A DNA stretch of 47,128 bases, from contig CANHIS010000020.1 in the NCBI GenBank assembly GCA_947460255.1, positions 1 through 47,128 of the forward strand, given 5' to 3'. The notes below the pieces were generated by a model. That model had not been told where the DNA came from. It did not search any database and saw nothing but the letters and a program-made list of their open reading frames with translations. This DNA is from Bacteroidota bacterium (GTDB lineage: Bacteria > Bacteroidota > Bacteroidia > M30B66). Position numbers and translations under genes: made by a program. Position 1 is the stretch's first letter. Every line of letters starts with the position of its first letter. Shown piece by piece: positions 21,243 to 42,962 of this stretch.

Positions 21243-21287
21243 CAAATTACCAGTGAAAACCAATTAATAATAAACTAATAAATAAAT

Positions 21288-22697: not shown

Positions 22698-23083
22698 GCA
22701 CGGCTTTTAAAACTGCATAGCCTTTTCGAATTCTCCCGAATGACCAAAGACTGGGAATTTGTAATTCAAATGACTTATAGCGCCAAGCCTTATGAAAAGT
22801 AGGAACTGATGAAGCGGTTTGCTTTGTACCCTCTTTTCAGAAAATTAAAAACCCCGTACAGGTTTTGTACAGGGTTTTCAGAATATTGAAAAAGGGGTAC
22901 AGGCGTGTTTTGATATGCCATTAACAAAACCTAGATTTCTTAAGACGCAACCTTTTAATGCATTGCCGTTTATCTCGGGAAGCTAAGCCTAATTAAAACA
23001 CATCAAAGCGAACAAAGAACACCTAACAATATGACGAGTACTAGAGCTTCAAACTCCCGCTTAATGATAAGCGCAAGGACATA
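22698..23083. other. convergent intergenic region with terminator
   Basis: About 385 bp between the plus-strand hydrolase and the minus-strand T9SS gene, which end towards each other. It holds one strong hairpin (22848-22878); the rest shows no gene or attC-like repeat. Confidence 0.55.
22848..22878. terminator. strong hairpin, likely bidirectional terminator
   Basis: AAAACCCCGTAC pairs with GTACAGGGTTTT across a 7-nt loop (one mismatch). It has A-rich and T-rich flanks and lies between convergent genes. Confidence 0.7.
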
Positions 23084-24725: not shown

Positions 24726-24756
24726 TCAGTGATTAAAGTTTATCTATTTAGGTTGC

Positions 24757-24887
24757 TCTAAATCTTTAATGGCTTTGCGCATCCCAGATTTCAGAGTCTG
24801 CATCAAAAGTAAGGTAAACTTCCTAGCAACTTGATGGCCTTTAGCACCTCAAATGTACGCGTTGTGCAAAACCGCAGTTTTAGTTAT
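24757..24887 (-). repeat. attC-like repeat after barrel gene (array end)
   Basis: Minus-strand reading: AAATAACT core at the barrel gene's stop codon, arm GCGGTTTTGCACAACGCG, centre CATCAAGTTGCTAGGAAG and TTTTGATGCA, arm ATGCGCAAAGCC, and end GATTTAGAGC (diverged from GTTRRRY). Confidence 0.7.
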
Positions 24888-25559
24888 TTATTGTTTTGTG
24901 AGTGCACATTTCATTCCTATCGTTAAATTCATTCCGTTATGTTGTAATTTACTATTTGCAAGGTAGTCGGAATTTGAAATTGTCGTAAAGCTATATTGAT
25001 ATGAAAACGAGGTAAACAACCAATATCGGCCACCAAATTTATAACCACCACCAATTTCAACTAAACCCGCAAAATCGAATTTCGAAGCACGATTGGTCAC
25101 GTCAAAAGTTTCTTTTCCCGATAACTTTCCGACGGTGTCGAAAACTGGTATTGTTGTCTTGGCGTCAACGAGCAAGGATGGAATAACTCCGATATTTGTA
25201 AACCCATAAAACTTAGTTCCAATATTTAATCCAGTCTTTATTGGAAGTGAAACGTAGTCATAGTTGAAAGTCATAATAAATATTTCACCTGTTGGGTTTC
25301 CTAAATTGTCGGTGAATACAATGTCGTTTGAAAAACCCCGCTGATTGTAAATCAAGTCAGCACCAATTGAAAAATGTTTCTTAATTAAAAATTCGTAGGT
25401 CAGTCCCGCAGTCAGACCTGTCCTTGAGTAGTTTTGACTTGAAAAATTACTCGAAGTAATATTTGTCGAGTTAGCACCACCCTTCAATCCAATAAGGTGA
25501 TTTTGTCCAGCAACTTTTATAGTTGAGAATGTCAAAATGATTAATACTATAATTTTCAT
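24888..25559 (-). CDS. outer-membrane beta-barrel (PorT-type) protein, cassette gene
   Basis: This 223-residue protein has a signal peptide ending VAGQ and strand-rich sequence through to the end (LIGLKGGANSTNI, then LTAGLTYEFLIKKHFSIGADL and GMNLTIGMKCAL). This is the outer-membrane beta-barrel/PorT-type pattern of Bacteroidota. Its ligand is unknown. The stop codon abuts the attC-like repeat at 24757-24887, and the start is about 30 nt from the preceding repeat, leaving no room for much of a promoter. Confidence 0.75.
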   Translation of the reverse strand: MKIIVLIILTFSTIKVAGQNHLIGLKGGANSTNITSSNFSSQNYSRTGLTAGLTYEFLIKKHFSIGADLIYNQRGFSNDIVFTDNLGNPTGEIFIMTFNYDYVSLPIKTGLNIGTKFYGFTNIGVIPSLLVDAKTTIPVFDTVGKLSGKETFDVTNRASKFDFAGLVEIGGGYKFGGRYWLFTSFSYQYSFTTISNSDYLANSKLQHNGMNLTIGMKCALTKQ

Positions 25560-25589
25560 TGTCAGTAGTTATTTGATTTCATTTTATAA

Positions 25590-25718
25590 TTGGCTATAAT
25601 GGTCCACTGCTTAGCGTAGCTAATGCATCAATGCATCAAAAGTAACGGCAATCTCCATGCAATTTGATGACTTATAGAACCACAAATCCGAGCGTTGAAA
25701 AATATCGCTTTATGTGGC
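25590..25718 (-). repeat. attC-like repeat after OmpA-domain gene
   Basis: Minus-strand reading: GCCACAT core, CAACGC, centre GTCATCAAATTGCATGGAG and CTTTTGATGCATT, ending in GCCAATT. Cores and arms are weaker than in other copies but the centre is clear. Confidence 0.6.
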
Positions 25719-25731
25719 ATGTTACTTTCAT

Positions 25732-26205
25732 TTAGCGAACCATGGTCACTTTAAATTCTATTCGTCGATTAATGGCATGTGCATTTTCCGATTTACTAAT
25801 GTCCATATTTTCAATTGTCTTTTCATCAATAATTGGTTTAGTTTTCCAATATCCTTTGGCTGACAATCTATCAGACTCGATCCCTTTAGAAATGAGATAA
25901 TTCACAATACTTTCAGCTCTTCGCTGATCAAAACGAAGGCTGGATTTATCACTTGCTCTTGCATCAACGTGCACACCAACTTCGATTTCGAGTTGGTTAT
26001 TTAATTTCAAAAAATCTGCAATGCTGTCTAAATACAAAAAACTTTCGGGCCGCAAAACAGACGAATTCAGTTCAAAGCAAACGCAATTAGTGACTCTATA
26101 AACATTGCCAACTAGAAATTTGGTATCACTTAGCTTATAAGTTTGTCCATTTGCAAAATTTGACAGAAAAAGCAGCCCTAGAAATACAATAATTGATCTG
26201 AGCAT
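25732..26205 (-). CDS. OmpA-C-terminal-domain protein, cassette gene
   Basis: This roughly 157-residue periplasmic protein starts at the ATG at 26205, which opens a signal peptide (MLRSIIVFLGLLFLSNF). The longer frame to 26295 would read through the attC-like repeat, so it is rejected; an ATG at 26226 is a weaker alternative. The body is an OmpA-like peptidoglycan-binding domain with FELNSSVLRPESFLYLDSIA, VGVHVDARASD, and FDQRRAESIVNYLISKGI then INRRIEFKV. It would tether the envelope to peptidoglycan. It has the compact spacing of the other cassette genes. Confidence 0.8.
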   Translation of the reverse strand: MLRSIIVFLGLLFLSNFANGQTYKLSDTKFLVGNVYRVTNCVCFELNSSVLRPESFLYLDSIADFLKLNNQLEIEVGVHVDARASDKSSLRFDQRRAESIVNYLISKGIESDRLSAKGYWKTKPIIDEKTIENMDISKSENAHAINRRIEFKVTMVR

Positions 26206-26222
26206 TGCTGCTTTAAAATAGT

Positions 26223-26353
26223 ACATAACGTTTTGCTGGATGGATCTGTTCGGGATAGCTGTCTCAAATGTATCAAAGTGAACGGAGATTTCCAATTAAC
26301 TTGATGATCATGAGAACTTGAGATGACTGAATTGCGTTAACCACTTGTTAGCG
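26223..26353 (-). repeat. attC-like repeat after metallopeptidase-like gene
   Basis: Minus-strand reading: CGCTAAC core, arm GTGGTTAACGCAATTC, centre GATCATCAAGTTAATTGG and TTTGATACATTTGAG, and end ACGTTATGT. Length 131 bp. It is about 95 percent identical to the copy at 27698-27828. Confidence 0.78.
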
Positions 26354-26362
26354 GTAGTAATT

Positions 26363-27670
26363 TTATCTTTTTTTAGTTTTAAACTTAATTGAATACGGTA
26401 CTATCCTGTTACCTCCATCTTCTTTTGCGAAATTTGAAATTATTAATTCGTAAGTTTTATTTGGTTGTAGGTCTTCTACTTCAAAAGTGTATCGTTTTTT
26501 GTCATCAGACCAACCAATGTGCTTTTTAATAACCAAGCGCTCTACCCCTTTTGCTTCACCATAATCAATGCTTCTACAACAATTACTCATTGGTTCAGAA
26601 AATTCTATTGTAATTGTTTTGAGTTTGGATGAGACCTTTTTACTTCCGTTTTCAAATTCCACCAATCGTTTAACAGTTGGTCTCATTGATTCGTACTTGA
26701 TTTCGATTTCTTTTATTGTCAATGGTAAAAAGTTCATACCGTCAACCAACTTTGCAAATTTTTCTTCATCGTTATAATCAAGTTCTATCAAGTCTTTAAT
26801 TGCTGCCTTCTTATCTGCTGCATTGTTATAATACCTTTCACAAATTTCATAGCCGATATAGTAGCCTAAATCATTTACTTTTAATTCGTTCTGGTTTTTA
26901 TTCCATATCCAATTCCAAACATCTTCATTTCTGAATATTTCTACCATATATCTTCTCAGAACTTTTTCAGCGTTTTGTTTACCATAAATTACAGGTGGTG
27001 ATAAAGGCTTTTCTGTAATCAAAGTTGAAATAAACTCCGCAACACCTTCTGCTACACAAAGATGTATTATACTTTGATTTTCCCAACTTTTTTGTTGAGT
27101 ATGAATATATTCGTGAATTGTCGTTAGTGGAATGTCATAAGGTGCATATTCTTTAATTGTATTTTTAATACGTTCGGGAAGTTCTTCTAAAACCGCATTT
27201 TTTTGAGCAAGCATAAATTCAGCACCAAGAAGAACTTTGTTGCCATCATAAGTTCCCCCGGTTCTAAATGCACCTATTGAAAAATAAATAGTAGCAGGTT
27301 TAAGTTCTGGATAAATTTCTTTCAACTTATTGAGGTACTTTTCAATTTGCTCTCTATTTTCTAAGATAAATGATGAATTACCTCTGATAGAGTTCCAATA
27401 TTTCGGATAATTTATAATGTTGCTAATAAATTCATAATCCTGATAATGCCTCACAGATATTAAACCTTTTAAACCTTCTGTTGCTTTGTTAATATATAGT
27501 TCGTTTATAATTTTAATTCTTTCTAAACTGTCAGATGATTTATTTATTTGGTCAAAAGCGAACCAAAAATTGTCTATGTCTGAAGTAACAATCTGTTTTT
27601 TGAAGTCTTGTCCAATAATTGTATTATATCCAAGAATCAAAGTAAATATAATATAAGCAATTCTTATCAT
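26363..27670 (-). CDS. HExxH metallopeptidase-like protein with Ig-like domain, cassette gene
   Basis: This 435-residue exported protein (signal peptide ending IIGQ) has a zinc-peptidase motif H186-E-Y-I-H190 followed by VAEGVAEF (E208 and E212 are candidate third ligands). That is the gluzincin arrangement. Residues about 330-432 form an SbsA/Big_5-like Ig domain (LKTITIEFSEPM, then DLQPNKTYELIISN). The substrate is unknown. The gene lies between two almost identical attC-like repeats, 9 bp from the downstream one and 28 nt from the upstream one, so it is a textbook single-gene cassette in layout. A true peptidase role is likely but unproven. Confidence 0.72.
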   Translation of the reverse strand: MIRIAYIIFTLILGYNTIIGQDFKKQIVTSDIDNFWFAFDQINKSSDSLERIKIINELYINKATEGLKGLISVRHYQDYEFISNIINYPKYWNSIRGNSSFILENREQIEKYLNKLKEIYPELKPATIYFSIGAFRTGGTYDGNKVLLGAEFMLAQKNAVLEELPERIKNTIKEYAPYDIPLTTIHEYIHTQQKSWENQSIIHLCVAEGVAEFISTLITEKPLSPPVIYGKQNAEKVLRRYMVEIFRNEDVWNWIWNKNQNELKVNDLGYYIGYEICERYYNNAADKKAAIKDLIELDYNDEEKFAKLVDGMNFLPLTIKEIEIKYESMRPTVKRLVEFENGSKKVSSKLKTITIEFSEPMSNCCRSIDYGEAKGVERLVIKKHIGWSDDKKRYTFEVEDLQPNKTYELIISNFAKEDGGNRIVPYSIKFKTKKR

Positions 27671-27697
27671 CTATTCTGTGGTTGTAGTGAGTATCAC

Positions 27698-27828
27698 CGC
27701 AAACGTTTTGCTGGATGGAGCTGTTCGGGAAAGCTGTCTCAAATGTATCAAAGTGAACGGAGATTTCCAATTAACTTGATGATTATGAGAACTTCAGATG
27801 ACTGAATTGCGTTGACCAGTTGTTAGAA
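27698..27828 (-). repeat. attC-like repeat after MORN-repeat gene
   Basis: Minus-strand reading: TTCTAAC core four bases past the stop of the gene, arm ACTGGTCAACGCAATTC, the same centre as 26223-26353, and end ACGTTTGCG. Length 131 bp. Confidence 0.78.
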
Positions 27829-27832
27829 GTAG

Positions 27833-28384
27833 TTAATAATTCTCCTGTCTTATTATCTCGTTGGTCTTTGCGTTGTAATATTTCCATAAACCAAATTTGT
27901 TCCCTTGCTTATATTCACCTTCAAACAAAATATTTCCATTATTGAACCACTCATACCATTTTCCGCTTTTCTGACCATTGAAATACATTTCAATCTTCCA
28001 GAGTTGTCCATTTGGATGCCACCAAATAGATTGTTTTAGAGTATTGTTATTGTCAAGGTAGATGTCTTCCAGAAATTTATTTCCTTTATTATCGAAAAGA
28101 AACCTGTCTGTAGCTATGTTGTTTTTATATCGAATTACGGCTTTTAGTTTTTGTGTCGAATAGAAACTACTATCCACATGCAGAAATCCATCTTTGTAAT
28201 GAGAAAATTTAACTTCATTTTCAGATGTTGTTTTAACAATACCGTTAAATAGTTTATCTCCTTTTTGGGTAAAAGTTGTGTCGTGTCGAACTGCCAACAT
28301 ACTATCCCGTTGAGAAAACTCAATTGTTTGTCCATTTAACTGAACCAGTATGATGGTTAATATTATGGTTATTGTCGTCTTCAT
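27833..28384 (-). CDS. MORN-repeat (YwqK-like) protein, cassette gene
   Basis: This 183-residue protein has a signal peptide and several MORN_2-type repeats in its second half (WWHPNGQLWKIEMYFNGQKSG, KWYEWFNNGNILFEGEY, KQGNKFGLWKYYN). Such proteins are called YwqK-family antitoxins in annotation, but here the signal peptide points to export, so the toxin-antitoxin label is doubtful. The start codon lies about 10 nt from the upstream attC-like repeat and the stop 4 nt from the downstream one, the tightest cassette in the window. Confidence 0.72.
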   Translation of the reverse strand: MKTTITIILTIILVQLNGQTIEFSQRDSMLAVRHDTTFTQKGDKLFNGIVKTTSENEVKFSHYKDGFLHVDSSFYSTQKLKAVIRYKNNIATDRFLFDNKGNKFLEDIYLDNNNTLKQSIWWHPNGQLWKIEMYFNGQKSGKWYEWFNNGNILFEGEYKQGNKFGLWKYYNAKTNEIIRQENY

Positions 28385-28393
28385 TAAATTACT

Positions 28394-28524
28394 GCTAAAG
28401 GTCCTGCGGCTTTTCGCAGCGAGGGTTTCAGGGCTCTAATGTATCAAAAGAGACGGGATTTTCCAAGCAACGCGATGACTCTTTGAAACACAAAACCCCG
28501 CGTTGCGCAAAGCCGATGTTAACG
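28394..28524 (-). repeat. attC-like repeat after DUF6688-like gene
   Basis: Minus-strand reading: CGTTAAC core, arm CGGCTTTGCGCAACGCGG, centre GTCATCGCGTTGCTTGGA and TTTTGATACATTAGAG, arm CGCTGCGAAAAGCCG, end CTTTAGC. The arms are nearly perfect complements, giving the clearest hairpin of the set. Length 131 bp. Confidence 0.8.
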
Positions 28525-28536
28525 GGAGGTTTGCGT

Positions 28537-29622
28537 TCAATTCATTATTTTAATGTCTTTACTATTTAAGTATTGCTTTGCAATTCTATTTTCTGGTTTC
28601 CTGTCAAATGTATACAGTATCACTAAGAAAAACATTTCTAGAGGCTTCATTATTATGTATATCATGTCTGATATAAATTTATTATTGAAAATATGGTAGT
28701 GTTTGTGAATCAATTTACCAATTTTATTGTATTGAGAACGGATAATTCGGTGCGTTTTTGGTAGGTTTTGTTGAATAATTTCTTCAAATGCATTTGCAAC
28801 TAAAAGCTGCCTGTTACAAATTATTTTACTCCCGTTTCGTTCACCGTATCTGATTGGACTTACAACTTTTTTGTGGCCATTCGCAGCTACTGAACAGAGA
28901 AAATGCTCGCCGCATTGAACATTGTAACACATGTAGTTAAGCTGCGAAAAACCATGTTTATAAGTGTCAGTAAATGCACGAACTATAGAGTCAGCCTTCT
29001 GTCCAAAGAGTAATAGCAATGATGACATAATAGTTAAAATAGGAAGACATAACGCTAAAAGAAATGGCATTTTGATAAATGGATTTAAATTTAAAATCCT
29101 CCAAGCGAATTTCTCAAAGTAATTTTCAGGTTCATATTGATTTATTTTATTTGACTCGATAAAGATTTTATGGTTTTCAATAAGACGAAACATAAATAGC
29201 AGACCAACTGGTATGCAGCCCCAAGGCCATAGTATTCCTGAAATATGAATTGCAATGAAAATATTTAGGACAAGCCCGAGAAGAAGAATTGAATTGGTTA
29301 GCACCTCTACTACAGGAGTGGAAAAGTTACGCTTGTAACTAGAGTAGAAGTATGTTATAATACAGACTGATATCAGAGTGTAAATTGTCAATTTATGTTC
29401 TGGTGAAAAAGTAGCACTGTCACCACAACAGTCATTTTTACTTTCATCAAATAGCAATAAGTAAAGAAGTGGTAACACAATCATACCTGCCACTTCTATA
29501 ATTCCACATTGAATTTTATTGTACAGTCTTCTCCCTGTGAGTATAAAAGATAGAAAATCGATTGACAACAATAAGGTAGGTAGTCCGCATAAGAGTATTA
29601 TAAGATAAAATAGAGCTGTCAT
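28537..29622 (-). CDS. multi-pass membrane protein, DUF6688-like, cassette gene
   Basis: This 361-residue protein has about five or six hydrophobic helices in the first 220 residues. A conserved-looking soluble segment follows, CGEHFLCSVAANGHKKVV then RYGERNGSKIICNRQLLVANAFEE, with a further hydrophobic helix near the C-terminus. I link this pattern to DUF6688 from memory. Biochemical role unknown; the Cys/His-containing segment could bind metal. It is bounded by attC-like repeats on both sides. Confidence 0.6.
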   Translation of the reverse strand: MTALFYLIILLCGLPTLLLSIDFLSFILTGRRLYNKIQCGIIEVAGMIVLPLLYLLLFDESKNDCCGDSATFSPEHKLTIYTLISVCIITYFYSSYKRNFSTPVVEVLTNSILLLGLVLNIFIAIHISGILWPWGCIPVGLLFMFRLIENHKIFIESNKINQYEPENYFEKFAWRILNLNPFIKMPFLLALCLPILTIMSSLLLLFGQKADSIVRAFTDTYKHGFSQLNYMCYNVQCGEHFLCSVAANGHKKVVSPIRYGERNGSKIICNRQLLVANAFEEIIQQNLPKTHRIIRSQYNKIGKLIHKHYHIFNNKFISDMIYIIMKPLEMFFLVILYTFDRKPENRIAKQYLNSKDIKIMN

Positions 29623-29688
29623 TTTTATTAATCTACGTTCATTGATATGTACATGATTTAAGGCTTATTAATGTCTTCTAAACTTGCC

Positions 29689-29819
29689 GTTAAAGGACCG
29701 GCGCTTGGCAGCGTTCGAGATAAGGTTTCTCAAATGTACATTTGGAAACGCAAACTTCCAAGCAACTTGATGATTATAGGTACTTCAGATGCACGAATTG
29801 CGCTAACCAATTGTTAGGC
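29689..29819 (-). repeat. attC-like repeat after frameshifted gene
   Basis: Minus-strand reading: GCCTAAC core (which contains the gene's TAA stop), arm TTGGTTAGCGCAATTCG, centre ATCATCAAGTTGCTTGG and ACATTTGAG, arm CGCTGCCAAGCGC, end CTTTAAC. Length 131 bp. Confidence 0.78.
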
Positions 29820-30331
29820 ATAGTATTTTTTACTCAGTTGTCTGTATTTTATTGGGGCATAAAGCTTTAATTTACTGTAAACTAAATATTTTAATAATTT
29901 ATCATAAGTCCTAAATGATTTTCTGAATTCAATATGTCGTCTGTCAACGAAAATATATTCAAATCCTTTGTCATTTTTATTAATGAAAAATCCGTCGGTC
30001 AAATTCTGAGGGTCAAATCGCATTTTATTTTGTAAATCCTTTGTCGCGAGATGTTGATAGTAATTGTCGGGGGCAATATTTATATAGTGATCTAAAAGTC
30101 CTGTCGGAATGAATTTAAATTGGGTTAAGGTCGACAGATAGCTTGTATTTTCATTGTCAAGAATTTCAAATTGTTGAATGTCTGTTAAGTTTGGATAACC
30201 AATGAGTTTGTGGGCGGTAATATGTCTTTGTATTTAATTTCGTATTTTTTATGGAAAAAGTAAATAACAACTTTAATGTATAAAAAGAGCGCCAGCACAA
30301 GTGAAAGAAATATGATTACTATAGTCCACAT
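29814..30331 (-). pseudogene. single-TM protein of unknown function, frameshifted cassette gene
   Basis: The ATG at 30331 opens a frame with a strong N-terminal membrane helix (MWTIVIIFLSLVLALFLYI), then a basic stretch to KYKDILPPT. Around 30210-30217 (CCGCCCAC on the minus strand) the frame must change, and the following frame runs without a stop from HKLIGYPNLTDIQQF to the stop at 29816. A one-base deletion is the simplest explanation. The joined product would be about 172 residues, with a cytoplasmic or periplasmic tail of unknown family. The stop TAA is part of the GCCTAAC core of the following attC-like repeat. A sequencing error is possible. Confidence 0.62.
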
Positions 30332-30339
30332 AACATTAC

Positions 30340-30388
30340 GCCTAACTTACTTATTGCCAAATTTATTGCTAACAATTACCAAACTTAA
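30340..30388 (-). repeat. three GTTRRRY-like cores in 49 bp, possible attC remnant
   Basis: Minus-strand reading gives GTTAAGT, GTTAGCA and GTTAGGC within 49 bp, ending 9 nt before the ATG of the frameshifted gene. No full palindrome is present. It sits where an upstream attC end would be expected, next to the inserted segment at 30385-31659. Confidence 0.45.
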
Positions 30389-30450
30389 CCCACCTCTCCT
30401 TATTCTCCAAATTCAAATTGCATTTCTGGGTGAAGTAATTTACGGTATTG

Positions 30451-30632
30451 AGTCTTTAGTCCTTAGTCTTGAGTCCTTAGTCTTGAGTCTAAAGTAGAAT
30501 GTTTAAAGTTGAAAGTATAAAGTAGAAAGTTGAAAGTATAATGCAGAAAGCTGAATGTAGAAAGTAGAAAGTAGAATGTAGAATGTAGTCTAAGAACTGT
30601 AGACTAAAGACTATAGACTAAAGACTAAAGAC
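30451..30632. repeat. 26 consecutive degenerate heptamers in three blocks
   Basis: In strict 7-bp register: AGTCTTT-like units (6), then AGTAGAA-like units (about 13), then TAAAGAC-like units (about 6). The first and last blocks are complementary, so the array can form a long hairpin. Related arrays lie at 38831-39033 and 45077-45167. The open frame 30276-30497 runs into it and is not called. Confidence 0.85.
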
Positions 30633-30864
30633 TAATATCTCGAAATGGTATTTAAAGTAACACTGAAACAATCGGAGCAATGCAAATTTGAAATTTTGAT
30701 AAACGACTCTAGCGTGTTTAAAATAAGCATTAATGCTCATTTTACGACTATAGATGCAATTAAAGTGACTTAATTACTATATTGACGCCCACAGGATGCT
30801 ATGAAAACAGCCTAATCGGTGATTGTTATAGCGCAAGATTTACCATTTCGAAACTACATAGTGC

Positions 30865-31416
30865 ATGACACCCAAGAAACTTAAAGAACTTCTAGGCCTT
30901 AGCCAAAAAAGCATGGCGATCTTGATGAATGAAGAGTATTTGAAGTATAGGTCTTTACAACGTAGAACAGGGAAGCCTCTGCGAGATTCTCAACTTTTGT
31001 ATGAATATATAGGTCAATATCGCCTCACTCAAAGATCATTAGAGACGCCACTGTCAATTTCTGCTAGCCTTGAGCCTCAACATCTTAGTATTTATGTAAT
31101 AGAGGATCTCCAGAAGCGTGTTAGAGCTTGTGAAAAAGATAAAATGATCTACCAAAACAATCTTAACAAGTTGGAGGCGCAACTCTCTCGTTACAACAAA
31201 GAATTTGCTGTGGTGATAGAACTACAAGCCGTCGTACCTGAAGAAGAACTAAACCTGCATGACCAAATTACCTTGCTAAAAAGACTACTCACTGAAAGCT
31301 ACATCAGTTTATATTACTCAATACTCGAGCGAAAACTCGCGCTCAACTGGAAAGAAGCAGAATACAATACATTGGTAAAGGAAATAGAAATGCTTAATAT
31401 TCAAAAGACTGTATAG
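30865..31416 (+). CDS. HTH-like N-terminus plus coiled-coil protein, unknown
   Basis: This 183-residue protein has an opening segment (TPKKLKELLGLSQKSMAILMNE) that looks like a helix-turn-helix with a LSQKSM recognition turn. A long helical stretch with heptad-like spacing follows from about residue 85 to the end (LQKRVRACEKDKMIYQNNLNK, then LNLHDQITLLKRLL), which suggests dimerisation by a coiled coil. No family is recognised. It is the only plus-strand gene within the minus-strand array and is followed 15 bp later by four spaced hairpins. It might bind those hairpins, or be an accessory protein of the element; both are guesses. Confidence 0.6.
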   Translation: MTPKKLKELLGLSQKSMAILMNEEYLKYRSLQRRTGKPLRDSQLLYEYIGQYRLTQRSLETPLSISASLEPQHLSIYVIEDLQKRVRACEKDKMIYQNNLNKLEAQLSRYNKEFAVVIELQAVVPEEELNLHDQITLLKRLLTESYISLYYSILERKLALNWKEAEYNTLVKEIEMLNIQKTV

Positions 31417-31430
31417 ACAAACCATTATAA

Positions 31431-31633
31431 CTGCACCACTTTTAAAAATTCCGAAAAGTGGTGCAGTTTTCAAAAAAATAAAAAAGCGTACCAGTTTTCA
31501 AAATTCTGAAAAGTGGTACAGATTTCAAAAAAATAAAAAAAACGTACCAGTTTTTGGAATTCCGAAAAGTGGTGCAGGTTTCAAAAAAAATAAAAAAGCG
31601 TACCAGTTTTTAGAATTCCGAAAAGTGGTGCAG
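31431..31633. repeat. four hairpins at 56-bp spacing
   Basis: Hairpins at 31431-31466, 31488-31519, 31544-31575 and 31600-31631. The first has perfect 13-bp arms CTGCACCACTTTT/AAAAGTGGTGCAG; the others have GTACCAGTTTT against AAAAGTGGTAC or AAAAGTGGTGC. A-rich spacers separate them. Starts (taking 31432 for the first) are 56 bp apart. Repeated GTGGTRCAG-type ends recall the multi-repeat ends of IS21-type elements, from memory. Confidence 0.85.
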
Positions 31634-31653
31634 ATAGCGAAATTGGGGAGGTG

Positions 31654-31784
31654 GGCTAACTGTCCGAGGCATTGCGCTGCGTAAGATTCAGAGAACTACG
31701 AAATCAATCAAAACTCAAATCTTCTAGTAACTTGATGAAATTCAGAACCACAAAGCCCCACTTTGCTCAAAACCGCTGTAATCA
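31654..31784 (-). repeat. attC-like repeat after beta-lactamase-fold gene
   Basis: Minus-strand reading: TGATTAC core (diverged), arm CGGTTTTGAGCAAAG, centre TTCATCAAGTTACTAG, arm CGCAGCGCAATGCC, end AGTTAGCCC, a good GTTRRRY-type core. Length 131 bp. Confidence 0.72.
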
Positions 31785-31791
31785 GAAGTTG

Positions 31792-33279
31792 TTATTTCAT
31801 TTCAATATTCAAAATTCCTTCTCCGTCTTTACCTAAATATTTAACAAGTATTTCCGCAAAGGCCTCTGCTCCGTTGTCGCTATTTGTAAAAATTAATAGT
31901 GCTTGTTTGGTTTTTGGAACAATAAAGGCGATTATATGAACTCCTATATCGTCACCTCCATGAACAAGAGCAAAGTCTTTATTTTCGTTAATACTTTCAT
32001 CAACCCACCAACCTAAGCCGAAATGCTTGTAATCATTAATTTTAGCTTGGTCAGATATCATTTCTTTATATAATTTATCCGATAATCCGGCACCATTCAG
32101 TATATGAACTAAAAACTTAGAGTAATCTTCAACTGTTGTAAGCAAATTGTCAGCTGCATTAACAGTAGTGTTTTTAAGGGTTTCATAAAGTCCACCTTTT
32201 TCATTATGCCACTTTGCGAACTTAGTTGAGTCTATTTTGTCATTCCAAATAAATCTGGTGTCTTCCATTTTTAAAGGACTAAAAATCAATTCTCTTGCTA
32301 ACTGATCTAGTGACTTCTTAAACTTAATTTCTAAGGCTTTTCGCAAGTACTCGTAACCTTCGCCTGAGTATTGGTATTTTTTTCCCGGCTCAAATTCAAA
32401 TGATAATTTACTGTTTTCATTATTTCCTCTCCAATTTGGGAAACCTGTTTGGTGACTTAATATGATTCTTGTAGTTAATAATTTGGATCTCGGGTCGTTC
32501 AAAACATCATTGTCTGTATAATATTTATAAATAGGTTCATCTAGATCCCATTTCCCCGCATTGATTAATTTTAAAGCAACAATGGCAGTAATTGGTTTGG
32601 TCAATGATGCAACATTCCATATTGTATTAACAGGTGCAGGTTTGTTCTTCTGTAACTCTCCAAACACACTAATTTGTTCAATTCTGCCATCCTTAATAAA
32701 ACCAATGCCCAGTGCTGGAATTTGTTTTTGTTTAAGCCATCTTTCCGTTTCGCTTTTGTCCGTAAATAAAAGTTCTTGATTAAATGGCTTCTCAAAATCT
32801 TTATGGTTGTAGCTTAATCCCTTTGAAAATTTAAAATCACCATTATCCAATATCCAAACGTGAGTAAAATTGGCAATGCTTGTGAGATACTCAGATTTAT
32901 TATCCTCTACAGCGTAAAAATTATGTATTCCTGTTTGAATTGCACCATACATTACACCATTTCTTTCCAATGGAAAAACTTCCATTTCGTTCTCTGATAA
33001 AATTCTTCTAGGCTTATAGGGTAATTTACAAAGTCCGTTCTCAATTCCAGAAATAAATTCTGCCTTTGAATTTATAATCCCTGATTGGTCGTGATAGAAT
33101 TCAAAATTTTCATTTAAAAGATTTTCAAATTGCTTGATGTCACAGTTGTTAAACCCAAGATTAAAAAGAAGGCTGTCTTTTTCTTTGATAGTTCTATACA
33201 ATGCAGATGTTTTATTAACCTGTCCAAATGTGATCAAACTTGAAATTAGTAAGAAGAGAATAAATACTTGTCTAATCAT
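31792..33279 (-). CDS. beta-lactamase-fold serine hydrolase with NTF2-like N-domain, cassette gene
   Basis: This 495-residue exported protein has a signal peptide ending TFGQ. Residues about 24-155 form an NTF2/DUF4440-like domain (LLNENFEFYHDQSG, then THVWILDNGDFKFSKGLSY). The C-terminal serine hydrolase has S225-L-T-K228, YQYSGEGY (Tyr-x-Gly in place of Tyr-x-Asn) and HGGDD for the third motif. Such enzymes include esterases, D-peptidases and beta-lactamases; the substrate is open. It lies 35 nt past one attC-like repeat and 7 bp before another. Unlike the 21288-22697 enzyme it has the added N-domain, so the two are not recent copies. Confidence 0.82.
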   Translation of the reverse strand: MIRQVFILFLLISSLITFGQVNKTSALYRTIKEKDSLLFNLGFNNCDIKQFENLLNENFEFYHDQSGIINSKAEFISGIENGLCKLPYKPRRILSENEMEVFPLERNGVMYGAIQTGIHNFYAVEDNKSEYLTSIANFTHVWILDNGDFKFSKGLSYNHKDFEKPFNQELLFTDKSETERWLKQKQIPALGIGFIKDGRIEQISVFGELQKNKPAPVNTIWNVASLTKPITAIVALKLINAGKWDLDEPIYKYYTDNDVLNDPRSKLLTTRIILSHQTGFPNWRGNNENSKLSFEFEPGKKYQYSGEGYEYLRKALEIKFKKSLDQLARELIFSPLKMEDTRFIWNDKIDSTKFAKWHNEKGGLYETLKNTTVNAADNLLTTVEDYSKFLVHILNGAGLSDKLYKEMISDQAKINDYKHFGLGWWVDESINENKDFALVHGGDDIGVHIIAFIVPKTKQALLIFTNSDNGAEAFAEILVKYLGKDGEGILNIEMK

Positions 33280-33313
33280 TTAGGTATATTATCTGCTGTC
33301 ATGTAACAATTAC

Positions 33314-33443
33314 TCCCAACGATCCGAGACTTTACTTAGCGAGGGTTACTGGGCTCTAATGTATCAAAAATTACGGCAATCTCCATGGAATTTGATGTCT
33401 TTAGAATCACATTTACCCGCGTTACTTAAAACCGCTTCTAGCT
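33314..33443 (-). repeat. attC-like repeat after 33459-34100 gene
   Basis: Minus-strand reading: AGCTAGA core, arm GCGGTTTTAAGTAACGCGGG, centre GACATCAAATTCCATGGAG and TTTTTGATACATTAGAG, arm CCTCGCTAAGTAAAG, end CGTTGGGAG. Length 130 bp. Confidence 0.76.
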
Positions 33444-33458
33444 AAATATTTTCTTCAA

Positions 33459-34100
33459 CTAATGCAAGCTGGTTTTTCTAACAAATTCCTTGATAATTTT
33501 ATCGTCAGTTTTCCTGTTTTTAAGAATTTGAAGTATTAAATCATAAGGCACTTTCTTCTCCTTCATTCGATATAAAATATTAAATTCAAGATTTGTGTTG
33601 TCGACACTTAAAAGAATTCCAAAGTCTGGACTGAAATACGTTTCTCCAGTAACAAAGGTTGTGTGATTATGCTTGGTTCCACAATGCGGATCATAACAGT
33701 TGTAGTCAATGTGTTTATACACTATGTATGAGGTATTACCTATTCTATAGGTAAGTTTCTCTGAAACGTAGTTGTCGATTTTTGATTTAGTAAGTAAGAA
33801 TGATTGCTTCTCATTCTTAATCGACTTAGCACTTGTTTCTATTTCATGCTTGGTAAGTGGAACTGTCCATGGATAAATTTTCTTTTTGCCTGAAGTTGCT
33901 TCAATAAGAAAATCCTTCTCTCTTCGCTGGATTACATACTTATCGTAATAGTTAACTCCTGAGCTTAATTCATGTGAATAATTGATGAGAAGCAAACATT
34001 CTACATTTGAGAACGTGATAATTTGTTTCGGTTTTAATTGTTCTTGCGAGAAACCGTGAAATTGCCACGATAGTAAGATAATAATGATTGAAGCTCTCAT
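33459..34100 (-). CDS. secreted protein of unknown function, cassette gene
   Basis: This roughly 213-residue protein starts at the ATG at 34100, which opens a signal peptide (MRASIIIILLSWQFHGFSQ). The frame to 34223 would read through the attC-like repeat and is rejected. The body contains YNCYDPHCGTKHNHTT, a Cys/His-rich stretch that might bind metal, and a basic C-terminus. No family is recognised. The start is 10 nt from the repeat core at 34110-34116, so translation must depend on a transcript that enters through the repeat. Confidence 0.65.
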   Translation of the reverse strand: MRASIIIILLSWQFHGFSQEQLKPKQIITFSNVECLLLINYSHELSSGVNYYDKYVIQRREKDFLIEATSGKKKIYPWTVPLTKHEIETSAKSIKNEKQSFLLTKSKIDNYVSEKLTYRIGNTSYIVYKHIDYNCYDPHCGTKHNHTTFVTGETYFSPDFGILLSVDNTNLEFNILYRMKEKKVPYDLILQILKNRKTDDKIIKEFVRKTSLH

Positions 34101-34109
34101 AAAATTGCT

Positions 34110-34237
34110 GCTAAATGTCTGTGGCTTTAGGATGCTGGGGTTGTAGGTCTCTAATGTATGAACGAAACGCAAATATCCTAGAAATTTGATGACTTTAGGA
34201 ACACATTTACCCGCGTAGAGCAAAACCGATGTTAACT
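34110..34237 (-). repeat. attC-like repeat after the four-gene block
   Basis: Minus-strand reading: AGTTAAC core, arm CGGTTTTGCTCTACGCGGG, centre GTCATCAAATTTCTAGGA and CATACATTAGAG, arm AGCATCCTAAAGCC, end ATTTAGC. Length 128 bp. Confidence 0.76.
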
Positions 34238-34271
34238 GCTGAAATTATTCCGTCTGGATTATCAATTGTTG

Positions 34272-34667
34272 TCAATAATAAGAAATAGTCAAAAAAATGA
34301 AACTTAGATATGTCCAAAGTAATGAAAACATTATGTGAATAAACGTTTCAAATTTCTTTCCTTTCCAAAGCTCAGTCGAGTAGCCAATAAATTGAATGAC
34401 AAGCCTAACTATCCAGAATACACCAAGTCCAAGCGATACTTTTTTGCCTAAGTTCGTTTCAATGAGTTCATTAGAAGATGTTAAGCAAAGCAAACCCATT
34501 AGTAATACAGTTAATGCGATAAAAAAGGTATGTACAGTCATCATTTGGCGATTAATCAAGCTCAATGATTTAAGTTCTTTTTCCCAATTAAAATATTTTG
34601 GAAAAACAATGTGTACCAATGCCAAAGCAATTAATATAATACCAATTATTTTTAAATGTATTTCCAT
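34272..34667 (-). CDS. four-helix membrane protein of unknown function, cassette block
   Basis: This 131-residue protein has four hydrophobic helices (about 6-26, 43-64, 78-100, 106-128) joined by short polar loops (FPKYFNWEKELKSLSLINRQMM between the first two). The family is not recognised. Its ATG overlaps the stop codon of the upstream methyltransferase (TAATG at 34665-34669), so it is coupled to it. It is the last gene of a four-gene minus-strand operon that lies within one cassette-like interval. Confidence 0.65.
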   Translation of the reverse strand: MEIHLKIIGIILIALALVHIVFPKYFNWEKELKSLSLINRQMMTVHTFFIALTVLLMGLLCLTSSNELIETNLGKKVSLGLGVFWIVRLVIQFIGYSTELWKGKKFETFIHIMFSLLWTYLSFIFLTISYY

Positions 34668-35416
34668 TAGTTGCAGCTAAATATTGACATAAAAGGTGTA
34701 AACTTTGTTTCTTTAAATGAAGTAAATCCAGCTTCTTCAAATGCCTTTTTCAAAGTAGCTCTTGAGAAAAAATGAGTAAAGCCTATTGTGAATGCTACAA
34801 AGTTTGGGAAATCTCTCAAGTGTTCTACCATAATAACATTACCGTTTGGTTTACAAACTCTGCGACATTCCTTTAAAAAATGCACTTTTTCCTCATGTAT
34901 GCGAATTTCGTGGATTGCTGATAATAAAAAGATATTATCAACTGAATTGTCATTTAGTGGAATTGAATTTGATTTGATTTGTTGTGTATTTGGATAAACT
35001 AGACTAACTTTTCTAGCTCGGATAATTGCTTGTTCTGTATGCTGATTGGCGTTATAGAAGTCATACGCTTGTAGTTTAGAATTGGGCAAAATACTTTCCA
35101 AAATAAAGCTTGTTTCGTCAAAGCCTGCGTTGATGTTCAAATTAAATTTTTCTTTTGTGTCTTCTATTTTCATTGTCTTAAGCCAATCAAAATTGTAAAA
35201 CCCAGAAAAATCATAAATATATGCGGAAACAAATAATGGCATTGTTAAACCATAAATGAATACCAAAATTACCAACGAAAACAAGCCGTTATGCCAATTG
35301 AAAATAAATTTACTTCCTATAGTTAAGGCCAAAGCCACAACCCCTGCAACATAAAAGTGTCGGTTGAAACTTAAAATATTTAATACTCCCTGAAAATTTC
35401 GTCTCTTTACTTCCAT
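34667..35416 (-). CDS. membrane-anchored class I SAM-dependent methyltransferase
   Basis: This 249-residue protein has two N-terminal membrane helices (about 19-72), then a Rossmann methyltransferase domain. A degenerate first motif region (INAGFDETSFILESILP) is followed by AIIRARKVSLVYPNTQQI, VDNIFLLSAIHEIR (motif IV-like), and LKECRRVCKPNGNVIMVEHLRD (post-motif region), matching the methyltransferase type 11 family. The canonical GxGxG is weak, so activity is less sure. It overlaps the upstream DUF2071 gene by 10 bp and the downstream membrane gene by 3 bp. The substrate is probably a membrane lipid or quinone-like molecule, an inference from the anchors. Confidence 0.78.
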   Translation of the reverse strand: MEVKRRNFQGVLNILSFNRHFYVAGVVALALTIGSKFIFNWHNGLFSLVILVFIYGLTMPLFVSAYIYDFSGFYNFDWLKTMKIEDTKEKFNLNINAGFDETSFILESILPNSKLQAYDFYNANQHTEQAIIRARKVSLVYPNTQQIKSNSIPLNDNSVDNIFLLSAIHEIRIHEEKVHFLKECRRVCKPNGNVIMVEHLRDFPNFVAFTIGFTHFFSRATLKKAFEEAGFTSFKETKFTPFMSIFSCN

Positions 35417-36144
35417 TGTTCAATTTTGCCTTTTTTCCAATAGTATGGAATGTTTTTAATTAAGAATGCATTTGCCAAAACTGAATTTTCAAGTTTTAAC
35501 ATATTTAAAAAATCGAACTCATAATCAATCACTTTTACTGGAGTGGGTGTCCAGTTTTCTCTTACTCCCTCTATGATTAAAACTTCTTTGGATGCTTTAT
35601 TATAAGAAAACGTAAAAGGCAAAGGCCCTGCAAACCTTCTTGCTTCCTTCCAGTCTGCAAAAGGTGAATTTTCAGGCAAAGAAATTGGTTCTTCTGTATT
35701 TTCTACTATGATTTTGAACTTTGATTTAATCGATGATATTTCCCTCATTTTTTGTTTTTCAATTTGGGTTATATCTGTTGTGGTATAGTTGTAGTGCGTA
35801 AATATATTTCCCAGGAATTCCATTTTCATTTTGTCGGTCTCTGATTTCAGAATATACAAACCGCGCAAACTTTTACCTGCCATATTCGTGTAGCGAACAA
35901 AAACACGGTAACCTATAAGAAAGAAATCGTTACCCATAAATTTCGGAAAACCTTTTGGTCGCAACTCTTTGGTTTGAACCATTGCAACTGCAACAAAAGC
36001 CCATTTGTCTTGAAATGTATCAAGCTGCAAACATTCTGGAATAAGATTTTGCAATTGTTCTTTTGGAACTGCAAAAGTCATAACAAGCGAACTTTTAAAA
36101 TACGCTTCAACTGCAAATGGATGGTTTTTCAAAAATGATAGCAT
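35407..36144 (-). CDS. DUF2071 (YqjF-like) protein
   Basis: This 245-residue protein has the DUF2071 pattern: AYFKSSLVMTFAVPKEQLQNL near the N-terminus, then FLIGYRVFVRYTNMAGKSLRGLYILKSETDK in the middle (quoted in parts), and a C-terminal ANAFLIKNIPYYWKKGKI. The family fold is acetoacetate-decarboxylase-like and its role unknown. No signal peptide or membrane helix is seen. It sits second in the four-gene operon: 4 bp after the DoxX-like gene and overlapping the methyltransferase by 10 bp. In other Bacteroidota this combination is familiar, from memory. Confidence 0.78.
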   Translation of the reverse strand: MLSFLKNHPFAVEAYFKSSLVMTFAVPKEQLQNLIPECLQLDTFQDKWAFVAVAMVQTKELRPKGFPKFMGNDFFLIGYRVFVRYTNMAGKSLRGLYILKSETDKMKMEFLGNIFTHYNYTTTDITQIEKQKMREISSIKSKFKIIVENTEEPISLPENSPFADWKEARRFAGPLPFTFSYNKASKEVLIIEGVRENWTPTPVKVIDYEFDFLNMLKLENSVLANAFLIKNIPYYWKKGKIEQWK

Positions 36145-36148
36145 CGAG

Positions 36149-36532
36149 TTATTTCAATTGTTTGCTGTTAAGATAAAATTCGTTGTAATAAACAATCAAT
36201 ATAAAAATAAATGCAAAAAGTGAGTTTAGCTTCCCCCAAAGCAACAAATCTGGAACAAGAATAAATTCAAGTGTGTTCATTATTGCAACTACAACTATTT
36301 GTGCTACAGTATTTAACTTTGTCTTATAGCGACTTACAACCCAAGCCGCCATAATGATTTCTGAAAGACCGATTATAATTGTCAATAGTCGAGAATATTG
36401 ATCGCCTAAAATTCTTGCAACAATTTGTTCGTGTCTTGAAACAAGATTTAGAACCTTACAAAAAAGTCCGTTTGCGATCCAAACTGCCGCAATACAATAG
36501 GTCAATATTTTGTAAATTCTTGTCTTCGTCAT
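36149..36532 (-). CDS. DoxX-like membrane protein
   Basis: This 127-residue protein has four hydrophobic helices and the DoxX-like pattern: YCIAAVWIANGLFCKVLNLV in helix 1, then a short loop with RHEQIVARILG and GLSEIIMAAWV in helix 2. DoxX relatives are often tied to redox or quinone chemistry in membranes, but the role here is unknown. It is the first gene of the operon that continues through DUF2071, methyltransferase and a membrane protein. The upstream 36540-36700 stretch holds a degenerate repeat. Confidence 0.75.
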   Translation of the reverse strand: MTKTRIYKILTYCIAAVWIANGLFCKVLNLVSRHEQIVARILGDQYSRLLTIIIGLSEIIMAAWVVSRYKTKLNTVAQIVVVAIMNTLEFILVPDLLLWGKLNSLFAFIFILIVYYNEFYLNSKQLK

Positions 36533-36547
36533 TGTTGGTTGTTCGGT

Positions 36548-36697
36548 CAGCTAAGCTTGAAGGTATCGTTCACTCATAGCCTAAGGTGGGGTGTAGAATT
36601 GCTAATGTGCAATTATTACTCAAAAGAAACTATAATGTCCTAATGTTCAATAAAGCAGAGAAGCCACGCTTTGGCCAATTTCATTCTGCCTTTAGGC
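36548..36697 (-). repeat. degenerate attC-like repeat candidate
   Basis: Minus-strand reading begins ATGCCTAAAGGCAG, then TTGGCCAAAGCGTGGC, CTTTTGAGTAATAATTG and CATTAGC. Position (between the TSUP gene and the DoxX-like gene) and direction fit, but the conserved centre is mostly lost. Confidence 0.35.
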
Positions 36698-36718
36698 ATA
36701 TTTACTGGTCATTCTTCC

Positions 36719-37516
36719 CTACTTTTTAATAAAAATGTCGTAGCCATATCTAAAAGTCATTAAGATTGTTATAAACAAAAATATTGTCCTAACAAAAGTA
36801 TTCCCTTTCATTAATGCGAGTCTTGTTCCAATTAAATTTCCTGTAATGTTACATACTGACATTATGATTGCAAGTTCTAACAAATAATTTCCTTGTCTGA
36901 TAAAAACGATAAGCGCCGAAATATTTGTCATACAGTTTATGACTTTGGAATAGGCAGACGCTTGAACAAATTCAAATCCCATAATCACAACGAAACCCAA
37001 AACAAAAAAGCTTCCTGTTCCTGGTCCGAAAAAGCCGTCATAAAAACCAACACTAAGCCCAATGAGTGAGCCATAAATTAATTGTTTGTGAAATAACAAA
37101 TTCTTTGTCTGCAATGAACCCAAGTCCTTTTTCAGAAATGTGTAAACTAAAATAACTATTAGCACAACTAAAATGACAGGTTTCAAGGTGTTTACATTAA
37201 TAAAGCTTACTGCTTTTGCACCTAAAAATGAAGCAAGCCCAGCACAAATTGAAATAGTAATAAGTAATTTATAGTTGAACTTTATTCGTTTAGAATATTG
37301 TAATGCCGAAATACTTGTTCCAGCTAAAGCTGCGATTTTATTTGTCCCAAAGATTGTCGGCAAAGGTGTCTTTGGCAGTGAGATAAGTAATGCAGGAATT
37401 TGAATAAGTCCGCCACCACCTACAACTGAGTCAATAAAACCTGCAACAAAAGATAGAATAATTAATGAAATAACTGTTACCGTCCCATAATCTGCAAATA
37501 TGTTTAAAAAGTCCAT
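36719..37516 (-). CDS. TSUP-family (TauE/SafE) transporter, cassette gene
   Basis: This 265-residue inner-membrane protein has about eight hydrophobic helices. It shows the family's duplicated motif: GFIDSVVGGGGLIQIPALL near the N-terminus and GFYDGFFGPGTGSFFVLGF in the second half. TSUP proteins export sulfite, sulfonates or related organic anions; substrate is open. The start lies 45 nt from the preceding attC-like repeat. Downstream is the degenerate repeat at 36548-36697, so this looks like a cassette with an eroded recombination site. Confidence 0.87.
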   Translation of the reverse strand: MDFLNIFADYGTVTVISLIILSFVAGFIDSVVGGGGLIQIPALLISLPKTPLPTIFGTNKIAALAGTSISALQYSKRIKFNYKLLITISICAGLASFLGAKAVSFINVNTLKPVILVVLIVILVYTFLKKDLGSLQTKNLLFHKQLIYGSLIGLSVGFYDGFFGPGTGSFFVLGFVVIMGFEFVQASAYSKVINCMTNISALIVFIRQGNYLLELAIIMSVCNITGNLIGTRLALMKGNTFVRTIFLFITILMTFRYGYDIFIKK

Positions 37517-37560
37517 TCTTATTTGTCTAATCTTTTAGTCTAGGGTGTTTAAAATGCTTG

Positions 37561-37690
37561 CAGGAACTGTTCACGGCTTTGCGCAGCGCGGATTTCAGGG
37601 CTCTAATATATCAAAAGTACAGCAATCCCCAAGCAACTTGATGCCTTTTAGAAACACAAATACCTGAGTTTCGCAAAAACGCTATTAGCA
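37561..37690 (-). repeat. attC-like repeat after 37703-37936 gene
   Basis: Minus-strand reading: TGCTAAT core, arm AGCGTTTTTGCGAAAC, centre GGCATCAAGTTGCTTGGGG and CTTTTGATATATTAGAG, arm CGCGCTGCGCAAAGCCG, end AGTTCCTG. Length 130 bp. Confidence 0.76.
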
Positions 37691-37702
37691 GTAATTGTTT
37701 CT

Positions 37703-37936
37703 CTATTCATGCACTTTATTGAAGTTTGTAAATCCATTCAGTTCCTTCTCCCAGCGAATTGTCTTGATAAGTAACCAATTCCCAACCAAACTGTCAGCCA
37801 AGATTGAAATTTTCTTCTCTGTTTCAGGGTGAAGTTTAATCTCTTTTCCGTTTTCTTTTATCGTCTGTCCGACAACCAAGTTAACAACGAAAAAGGTCAA
37901 TGCAAAAGCTGTGTATATGTTGTTTTTTTTGGTCAT
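37703..37936 (-). CDS. short secreted protein, cassette gene, possibly truncated
   Basis: This 77-residue protein has a signal peptide (TAFALTFFVVNLVVGQ). The mature part of about 50 residues ends in SLVGNWLLIKTIRWEKELNGF, which resembles the first strand of lipocalin-like domains (GxWxLxKT). A full lipocalin-like domain would need about 80 more residues, so the gene may be a shortened form. The stop lies 13 bp before the attC-like repeat and the start 15 nt after the preceding one. Family not certain. Confidence 0.55.
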   Translation of the reverse strand: MTKKNNIYTAFALTFFVVNLVVGQTIKENGKEIKLHPETEKKISILADSLVGNWLLIKTIRWEKELNGFTNFNKVHE

Positions 37937-37950
37937 TCTTTTATAACTAT

Positions 37951-38082
37951 TGCCAACGTTTCGTTATTTAAAGCTTTTCAGGACAGCTTACTCAAATGCA
38001 TCAATTGAATATCGATTTTCCAAGCTTCCTTGATCTTTCTAAAGACCTCAAATTCCCAAATAGCATTAAATAAATGTTATGC
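37951..38082 (-). repeat. attC-like repeat after 38097-38783 gene (first of the array)
   Basis: Minus-strand reading: GCATAAC core, centre AGATCAAGGAAGCTTGG and TTGATGCATTTGAG, end AACGTTGGCA. Both cores are good (GCATAAC and GTTGGCA); the arms are weaker. Length 132 bp. Confidence 0.72.
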
Positions 38083-38096
38083 CCAGCACTTTTATT

Positions 38097-38783
38097 TTAT
38101 TTATCTTCTTTGCTAAATACTATGTCAAGCACAAAAACAGGTTTAGAGCGATCAAAAGGTGTGACTGATATGCATGATATAGCTACCCTATAGTATGGAT
38201 CAAAGTGATCGAAGATTTTTCCAATACATTTTTCTTTGCTTTTTGAGAATTGCGCTTCCCATTTATCATCTTGTATTGAACTAGTGTCTGTGTAAATAGG
38301 TTGTACTAAATTTAATAATCTTCGATACTCTAGTTCAACGCGATCTTTATTGGAGAAGAAATATTTATACTCTAAAAACAAAGGATGTTTAGTTGTGTCT
38401 TCTTGTCCCCCTTTTTCAGTAACCAAAGCAGCGTTCCCATAAGCCAATAGAACTTTTATTGAGTCAGGGTTAGATCTAATAATACCTTTGTCTGCTGTAA
38501 TACCTTTGAAAAAAGTATTGGCTGGGTAGTCATTGAAAGATGTGTCAGTTAAAATATATCTCTTGTCTTTTACAATTATTTCACGAAGGTCTAAACGGGA
38601 TTTTTCAAGAGGTAAGTTGTAAAAAATATTTTCAATAACAGAATGAACTTGACTGGCTTTCACTGTGTCAGCCGTTCGAGTTATTTCTAGGTTTTGTGGA
38701 TTCTTAGCCCCAGAGTTACTAGCTTTCGACGCTAATACTGCTGTTAAAACGGTAACAGTTAAAATAAAAAGTGCTTTCTTCAT
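38097..38783 (-). CDS. secreted protein of unknown function, first array gene
   Basis: This 228-residue protein has a signal peptide (MKKALFILTVTVLTAVLASKA). The body is mixed, with FKGITADKGIIRSNPDS and HPLFLEYKYFFSNKDRVELE. No family is recognised. It is the gene nearest the heptamer array at 38831-39033, which covers its probable promoter region. The attC-like repeat begins 14 bp past its stop. If the array is transcribed from this side, the promoter should lie in or before the heptamers. Confidence 0.6.
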   Translation of the reverse strand: MKKALFILTVTVLTAVLASKASNSGAKNPQNLEITRTADTVKASQVHSVIENIFYNLPLEKSRLDLREIIVKDKRYILTDTSFNDYPANTFFKGITADKGIIRSNPDSIKVLLAYGNAALVTEKGGQEDTTKHPLFLEYKYFFSNKDRVELEYRRLLNLVQPIYTDTSSIQDDKWEAQFSKSKEKCIGKIFDHFDPYYRVAISCISVTPFDRSKPVFVLDIVFSKEDK

Positions 38784-38830
38784 TGTCTTTTCATTTTTAA
38801 GTTCCAGATTCGAAGTTGTTGTGTCGTCAA

Positions 38831-39033
38831 AGTATGGAGTAACTAGTACTGAGTATTTAGTCCTTAGTGTTTAGTATAAAGGAGAAAGGTGAAAGGTGAA
38901 AGGAGAAAGGTGAAAGGAGAAAGGTGAAAGGAGAAAGGAGAAAGAAGAAAGAAGAAAGAAGAAAGAAGAAAGAAGTCCTTAGTCTAAAGACTCTAGACTA
39001 AGGACTTCAGACTAACGACTAAGCACTTCAAAC
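38831..39033. repeat. 29 consecutive degenerate heptamers in three blocks
   Basis: In strict 7-bp register: AGTATTT/AGTCCTT-like units (7), then AGGTGAA/AGGAGAA (9) and AGAAGAA (4), then TAAAGAC/TAAGGAC-like units. The last units run into the paaZ stop codon. Block order and complementarity of the outer blocks match 30451-30632. Confidence 0.88.
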
Positions 39034-41526: not shown

Positions 41527-41555
41527 GATGTTTTTCTTGAAAGATTATGGGAAAA

Positions 41556-42758: not shown

Positions 42759-42907
42759 GCAAGATTAGCAAAAAGGAGATGGTGAATGGCCTTTTGCGAG
42801 GCTCAAAAGTAGGAAGAAAAATGAAAGAAGGCAGGACCTCAAACTGAAGTTTAAATCCAAGTAAAACTTCGATTATTGCAGGGGAATTTCAGGTAATAAT
42901 TAGATAG

Positions 42908-42942: not shown

Positions 42943-42950
42943 GAAACACT

Positions 42951-42958: not shown

Positions 42959-42962
42959 CTAT

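Follow-up and report, generated by a model that had tools for sequence, protein, structure and literature searches.

Integrons have been described as nearly absent from Bacteroidetes, from which previously only In0 elements plus a single complete integron in Salinibacter had been reported (IntegronFinder 2, PMC9024848). A subgroup of simple tyrosine recombinases has been described as integron-like (PMC8138268), and the accessible part of that study describes no cassette arrays or sites from Bacteroidota. Here we analyse a contig of 47,128 nucleotides from a Bacteroidota bacterium (CANHIS010000020.1, assembly GCA_947460255.1; contig C20 of genome G000, hereafter the window), which carries a row of genes followed by palindromic sites similar to the attC sites of integron cassettes. 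We consider it very likely that this array belongs to an integron-like cassette system that is widespread in the class Bacteroidia and has as its recombinase TRn, our name for an array-linked family of tyrosine recombinases of ~350-400 amino acids, related to the integron integrase IntI and devoid of its defining insert. TRn may belong to the integron-like subgroup mentioned above, and no published description of a TRn cassette system was found in the open-licence literature.

Eleven clear copies of a site of ~130 nt, all on the minus strand and sharing one orientation, lie at positions 24756-38083 of the window (table 1). They were recovered both by a sequence-only model of the site (R1; 70-97 bits) and by a structure model (R2; 37-117 bits, E-values 4e-6 to 5e-24). 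Ten of the eleven start 4-34 bp past the stop codon of the preceding open reading frame (ORF) on the same strand, and the remaining one overlaps a short ORF by 6 bp. The initial annotation of this stretch, made from the window sequence alone, had placed twelve palindromes behind minus-strand genes; eleven of these stand, as does their tie to gene ends, whereas the twelfth, a degenerate copy after a TSUP permease gene placed by eye, was too decayed to be recovered by R1 or R2 and is therefore treated here as unproven. Besides the TSUP permease, the array genes encode, according to Pfam and ORF calls, a DoxX/DUF2071/methyltransferase group, a serine hydrolase, a DUF6688 protein, an OmpA-domain protein and a beta-barrel protein. 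Instead of a single clean cassette, the block at 29.8-31.4 kb holds decayed genes on the minus strand along with tandem repeats and an ORF on the plus strand. Additional copies outside the 24.7-38.1 kb array sit on the strand of their respective preceding ORFs. A motif scan revealed no recombinase and no attI-like motif inside the window.

The structure of the sites was resolved in an alignment of 47 copies drawn from the genus of the window plus ten other genomes. The aligned sites end in GCTAAC...GTTAGC, and their arms pair as a 20-bp covarying stem inside the box. The box columns hold AAC in 41 and GTT in 38 of the 47 sites, in keeping with the originally noted resemblance of the cores to RYYYAAC and GTTRRRY, with the usual outer letters of GCTAAC/GTTAGC departing from the strict consensus. 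The highest covarying column pairs all fall on one register, and the covariation score of 0.353 compares with 0.05-0.09 when the partners are slid and with 0.124 +/- 0.010 after shuffling (0/500 shuffles). The complementary arms pointed out in the initial annotation are thus real, and the copy it considered the best palindrome is indeed the best in the window. Of the 47 sites, 42 have a conserved A.C mismatch, which reads G.T on the bottom strand; overall there are 103 A.C cells vs 39 G.T cells, and the bottom strand provides the better fold in 35/47 sites, a preference that agrees with the strand that attC uses. The attC-type extrahelical bulges that the initial annotation had taken as a mark of such sites are absent from the 20-bp outer stem, the part of the site covered by this result, which encloses an inner 82 nt, and the spacers measure 1 nt and 5 nt. 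Since most single window copies fold weakly (z-scores -2.1 to +1.1), the stem is proven solely by comparison: RNAalifold found no hairpin in the 11 window copies by themselves, and the stem emerged once sites from other contigs and genomes joined the alignment. An Rfam scan returned no match to an attC-like family, and R2 had zero matches in 761 kb of other DNA, mostly proteobacterial.

The sites extend far beyond the window. R1 yields 41 matches across its genome, including contigs that consist of little besides cassettes (C136, C180, C166 and C145, with Fic, PIN, DUF433-DUF5615, AbiJ and HsdR-like genes), and many contigs stop at a site, as repeats are expected to break assembly. In a survey of 395 Bacteroidia genomes, many of them fragmented metagenome-assembled genomes (MAGs), R2 detected sites in 221, the site counts being floors (eight candidates were scored per genome). 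When 84,980 genomes were queried with the TSUP cassette gene, its relatives had no R1 sites beside them, and R2 gave two distant matches only.

When sites and all PF00589 recombinases were mapped in ten near-complete genomes, most arrays turned out to adjoin a recombinase, codirectional with the array in G197, G142, G217, G270 (C4), G213, G116 and G299 and divergent in G043 and G048. Ten aligned members of TRn have the usual catalytic residues in common, and TRn usually carries an extra N-terminal domain with a WSxxxKxW motif. The distance from KGxKDR to HxLRH is 58-61 residues in TRn vs 100 in IntI, and the IntI insert motif occurs in none of 77 TRn sequences. TRn proteins score 206-228 bits to XerA (NF040815, cut-off 220), their nearest NCBIfam model, and 186-211 bits to IntI (cut-off 265). 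A tree groups IntI and TRn apart from two Xer proteins, with their order unsettled, including whether TRn is sister to IntI. A profile built from ten members (E <= 1e-75) detected TRn in 196 of the 395 genomes; TRn and sites occur together in 149 genomes, sites only in 72, TRn only in 47 and neither in 127 (odds ratio 5.6; Fisher p 1e-15, which overstates independence because the genomes are related). Among 15 close pairs of TRn gene and site, the sites are downstream and codirectional in 14.

Several variants of this arrangement were encountered. Each of the three arrays on contig C1 of G048 (L258-L260) has a shorter recombinase that is divergent and without the N-terminal domain, and several of their sites are ~195 nt long; these arrays may represent a second subtype. 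One TRn-family member (G270:C6, 5091-6191, minus strand; L254) has asparagine in place of the catalytic tyrosine and is probably inactive. The mobilizable Flagellimonas plasmid NZ_CP092416 (L340) has an attC-like site at 7647-7782 (minus strand; 75 bits) near erm(F) and a XerA-like recombinase. In the genome of the window, an integrase on C69, first suspected on account of a site 2 kb away, proved to be a different, mobile-element-type enzyme with a far lower score (49 bits), and an IS91-linked recombinase on C233 was likewise set aside as the array recombinase, as were the Xer proteins.

The TRn gene of this genome lies on contig C2 (2159-3280, minus strand), where it is accompanied by an attI-like site and by two secretion-tail or related genes; the contig ends past an attC-like site at 139-271. 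The array of the window is a second, remote cluster without a recombinase of its own. The search for intI or another tyrosine recombinase proposed in the initial annotation has accordingly led to TRn, which that annotation could not have seen, nor its attI-like site, as both lie on another contig. One-way cassettes, each closing with a site as in the window, are likewise found in the G197 array and on a Chryseobacterium plasmid. Chryseobacterium plasmid NZ_CP041688 is among the carriers of TRn.

The attI-like site, TATAARYRAGTTAG, follows the stop codon in 42 of 67 TRn genes at a median distance of 103 bp. G000 and its congener G001 have TRn genes that are 95% identical and attI regions that are nearly identical through AAGTAAGTTAG, after which homology is gone. 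Similarly, two Chryseobacterium plasmids share ~90% identity across the backbone, the recombinase and ATATAAACAAGTT and are unrelated thereafter, one of them having cassette sites downstream of this motif. Six of the 16 contigs that stop shortly after TRn do so at GTT or GTTN (p 6e-6), as expected if the sequenced cells hold different first cassettes. These three comparisons mark GTT(AG) as the putative insertion point. Cassette content also differs between relatives, as the initial annotation had suggested checking. G001 has the PaaZ-type locus of the window at 97% identity, with other DNA instead and none of the cassette genes, an absence that is not absolute because its contig ends soon afterwards. 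The Fic cassette of the window's genome is present in G001 at a different locus, and the OsmC cassette recurs in relatives with other neighbours or at other loci, its homologue in G004 directly preceding a site. In G003, a copy of the gene at 38097-38783 is homologous only as far as GGCATAAC.

From these comparisons of sequences we infer catalysis by TRn, use of the folded bottom strand, entry of cassettes at attI and the direction of insertion. A cassette would consist of one or a few genes plus one site of ~130 nt, and TRn would join the folded bottom strand of the cassette site to attI at G|TT; new cassettes would therefore enter beside the recombinase gene, and arrays would grow away from it. 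Cassettes may also be excised or land elsewhere.

Some observations weigh against this interpretation. In addition to the relatedness of the genomes, which tempers the co-occurrence statistics, 72 genomes have sites and no TRn above the cut-off and 47 show the reverse, mismatches for which thresholds and fragmented MAGs may partly account. Of the 67 TRn genes, 25 lack the attI pattern used, and the recombinase of some arrays (G043, G048) is divergent and shorter. Furthermore, window positions 38962-43900 and contig C2 are 95-97% identical to G001, and contigs C63, C43 and C97 are 74-76% identical, possibly indicating a recent transfer or a mixed bin.

A more conventional explanation would be that we are dealing with ordinary integron cassettes, that is, a cluster of attC sites lacking integron integrases (CALIN), left behind or served in trans by a canonical IntI missing from the assemblies. 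The integron-type layout, the GTT/AAC cores and genes typical of cassettes (toxin-antitoxin, defence) fit this explanation, and intI could be missed because MAGs break at repeats. Nevertheless, it appears improbable to us: at the curated cut-off of TIGR02249, canonical IntI is found neither in this genome nor in its order, and in 1/395 genomes of the class (G147), vs sites in 221/395, complete genomes included; G147 is not among the site-bearing genomes, and the recombinase at the arrays is a different enzyme that has an attI of its own. The G147 integrase (C40, L173; 422 bits) has no attC-like repeats within 20 kb and represents an In0-type element in Bacteroidia. Of the initially proposed integron array or CALIN in Bacteroidota, the cassette array without an adjacent integrase has therefore been retained and its standard, IntI-type nature has not; the evidence favours the other option raised there, namely that the site class is new or the cassette mechanism a different one, and the system has a tyrosine recombinase and an attI-like site of its own.

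We see very little chance that the sites make up a family of non-autonomous transposable elements or repeats (akin to miniature inverted-repeat transposable elements, repetitive extragenic palindromic sequences or terminators) placed behind genes that are immobile as units. Single and degenerate copies do exist, and the sites hug gene ends as terminators do, but they are uniformly oriented with respect to the genes and lie a few bp past same-strand stops rather than being dispersed, the arrays begin at one recombinase, GTTAG is common to the sites and attI, homology is lost abruptly at GTT in related loci and cassette genes recur at other loci. It is equally hard to believe that the cassettes are moved by XerC/XerD or some other recombinase, with TRn a mere passenger by the arrays. 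The 72 genomes with sites and no TRn above the cut-off would be explained in this way, Xer proteins being generally present; against it stand the contiguity of TRn and arrays in many families, the attI motif immediately behind TRn and the catalytic residues kept in nearly all TRn proteins, as one would expect of an enzyme subject to selection.

Table 1. attC-like sites, selected genes and the array edge in the window, ordered within the array from its upstream edge (positions are those of the window; R1 and R2, site models; G, surveyed genomes).
Feature	Position	Strand	Basis
Array upstream edge: low-complexity repeats adjoining PaaZ-type gene	38784-39027	.	comparison with G001
attC-like site after gene 38097-38783 (no Pfam match)	37950-38083	-	R2 92.5 bits; ends GCATAAC...CGTTGGC
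attC-like site after decayed short ORF 37703-37936	37565-37691	-	R2 84.5 bits
Putative degenerate site after TSUP gene 36719-37516	36551-36691	-	by eye only
Four-gene block: DoxX-like, DUF2071, methyltransferase, small membrane protein	34272-36532	-	Pfam, ORFs
attC-like site	34108-34238	-	R2 86.2 bits
attC-like site	33313-33444	-	R2 93.6 bits
Cassette gene, serine hydrolase/beta-lactamase fold (PF00144)	31792-33279	-	Pfam
attC-like site	31653-31785	-	R2 84.9 bits
attC-like site	29687-29820	-	R2 96.4 bits; 80% identity to G007 site
Cassette gene, DUF6688	28537-29622	-	Pfam
attC-like site, best palindrome of the window	28392-28525	-	R2 117.4 bits; fold z -2.08; 86% identity to G004 site
attC-like site after MORN-repeat gene 27833-28384	27697-27829	-	R2 101.8 bits
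attC-like site after gene 26363-27670 (GldB/DUF2268-like, Pfam)	26222-26354	-	R2 98.9 bits
attC-like site after OmpA-domain gene	25593-25716	-	R2 36.6 bits
attC-like site after beta-barrel gene 24888-25559, final array copy	24756-24884	-	R2 52.3 bits
Isolated attC-like site, 121 bp past gene 9955-11244	9700-9834	-	R2 79.5 bits
Partial attC-like site upstream of OsmC gene	20078-20128	+	R2 29.8, R1 50.1 bits
Degenerate attC-like site after OsmC-DUF2834 pair	21126-21243	+	R2 27.2 bits
Weak attC-like site, 6 bp past gene 23084-23731	22952-23078	-	R1 21.9, R2 14.5 bits
Isolated attC-like site, 10 bp past PIN-domain gene 43147-43578	43588-43704	+	R2 22.8, R1 29.5 bits

Other repeats and motifs are present in the window as well. 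Tandem repeats of 56 bp with GTGGTGCAG/GTACCAG, plus 14-bp arrays of the AAAGTNG type, occur at 31411-31642, 30491-30592 and 38864-38979, and a repeat of ~200 bp at 19518-19761 is found in more than 10 places in genomes of the same genus at 74-86% identity. Positions 17782-17849 (plus strand) match the DUF805 RNA motif of Rfam with 66 bits.

We regard it as likely, though with somewhat less confidence than the existence of the system as such, that Bacteroidia possess an integron class of their own, in which a recombinase without the domain that reads extrahelical bases is combined with sites without those bases, in about half of the sampled genomes and on plasmids. If so, a system of cassette capture holding toxin-antitoxin, defence and enzyme genes has gone unrecognised in a large phylum, search tools based on the IntI domain would miss its recombinase, and folded-site cassette capture has a second solution.

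Compared with described systems, the array of the window is like a CALIN in having at least two sites and no adjoining recombinase, and differs in that its sites belong to the TRn system rather than to IntI-attC and a recombinase is encoded on another contig of the genome. XerA-type recombinases (NF040815; PDB 4a8e, 5hxy) provide the nearest model and, by sequence, the nearest solved structures to TRn, which differs from them in adjoining cassette arrays and having attI. To our knowledge, XerA does not act as a cassette integrase. With integrons (IntI1, Vibrio IntI4/IntIA, TIGR02249) the TRn system shares a tyrosine recombinase gene with an adjoining attI and a one-way cassette array, as well as palindromic sites with AAC and GTT boxes, a better folding bottom strand and a G|TT breakpoint. 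It differs from them in that TRn lacks the IntI insert, scores below the IntI cut-off and usually has an extra N-terminal domain, that its gene is usually codirectional with the array, and that the outer stem of the sites has a conserved A.C mismatch, 1-nt vs 5-nt spacers and no extrahelical base. As the TRn system lacks both the IntI insert and the extrahelical bases, it would, if this reading is correct, offer a natural test of the role of each.

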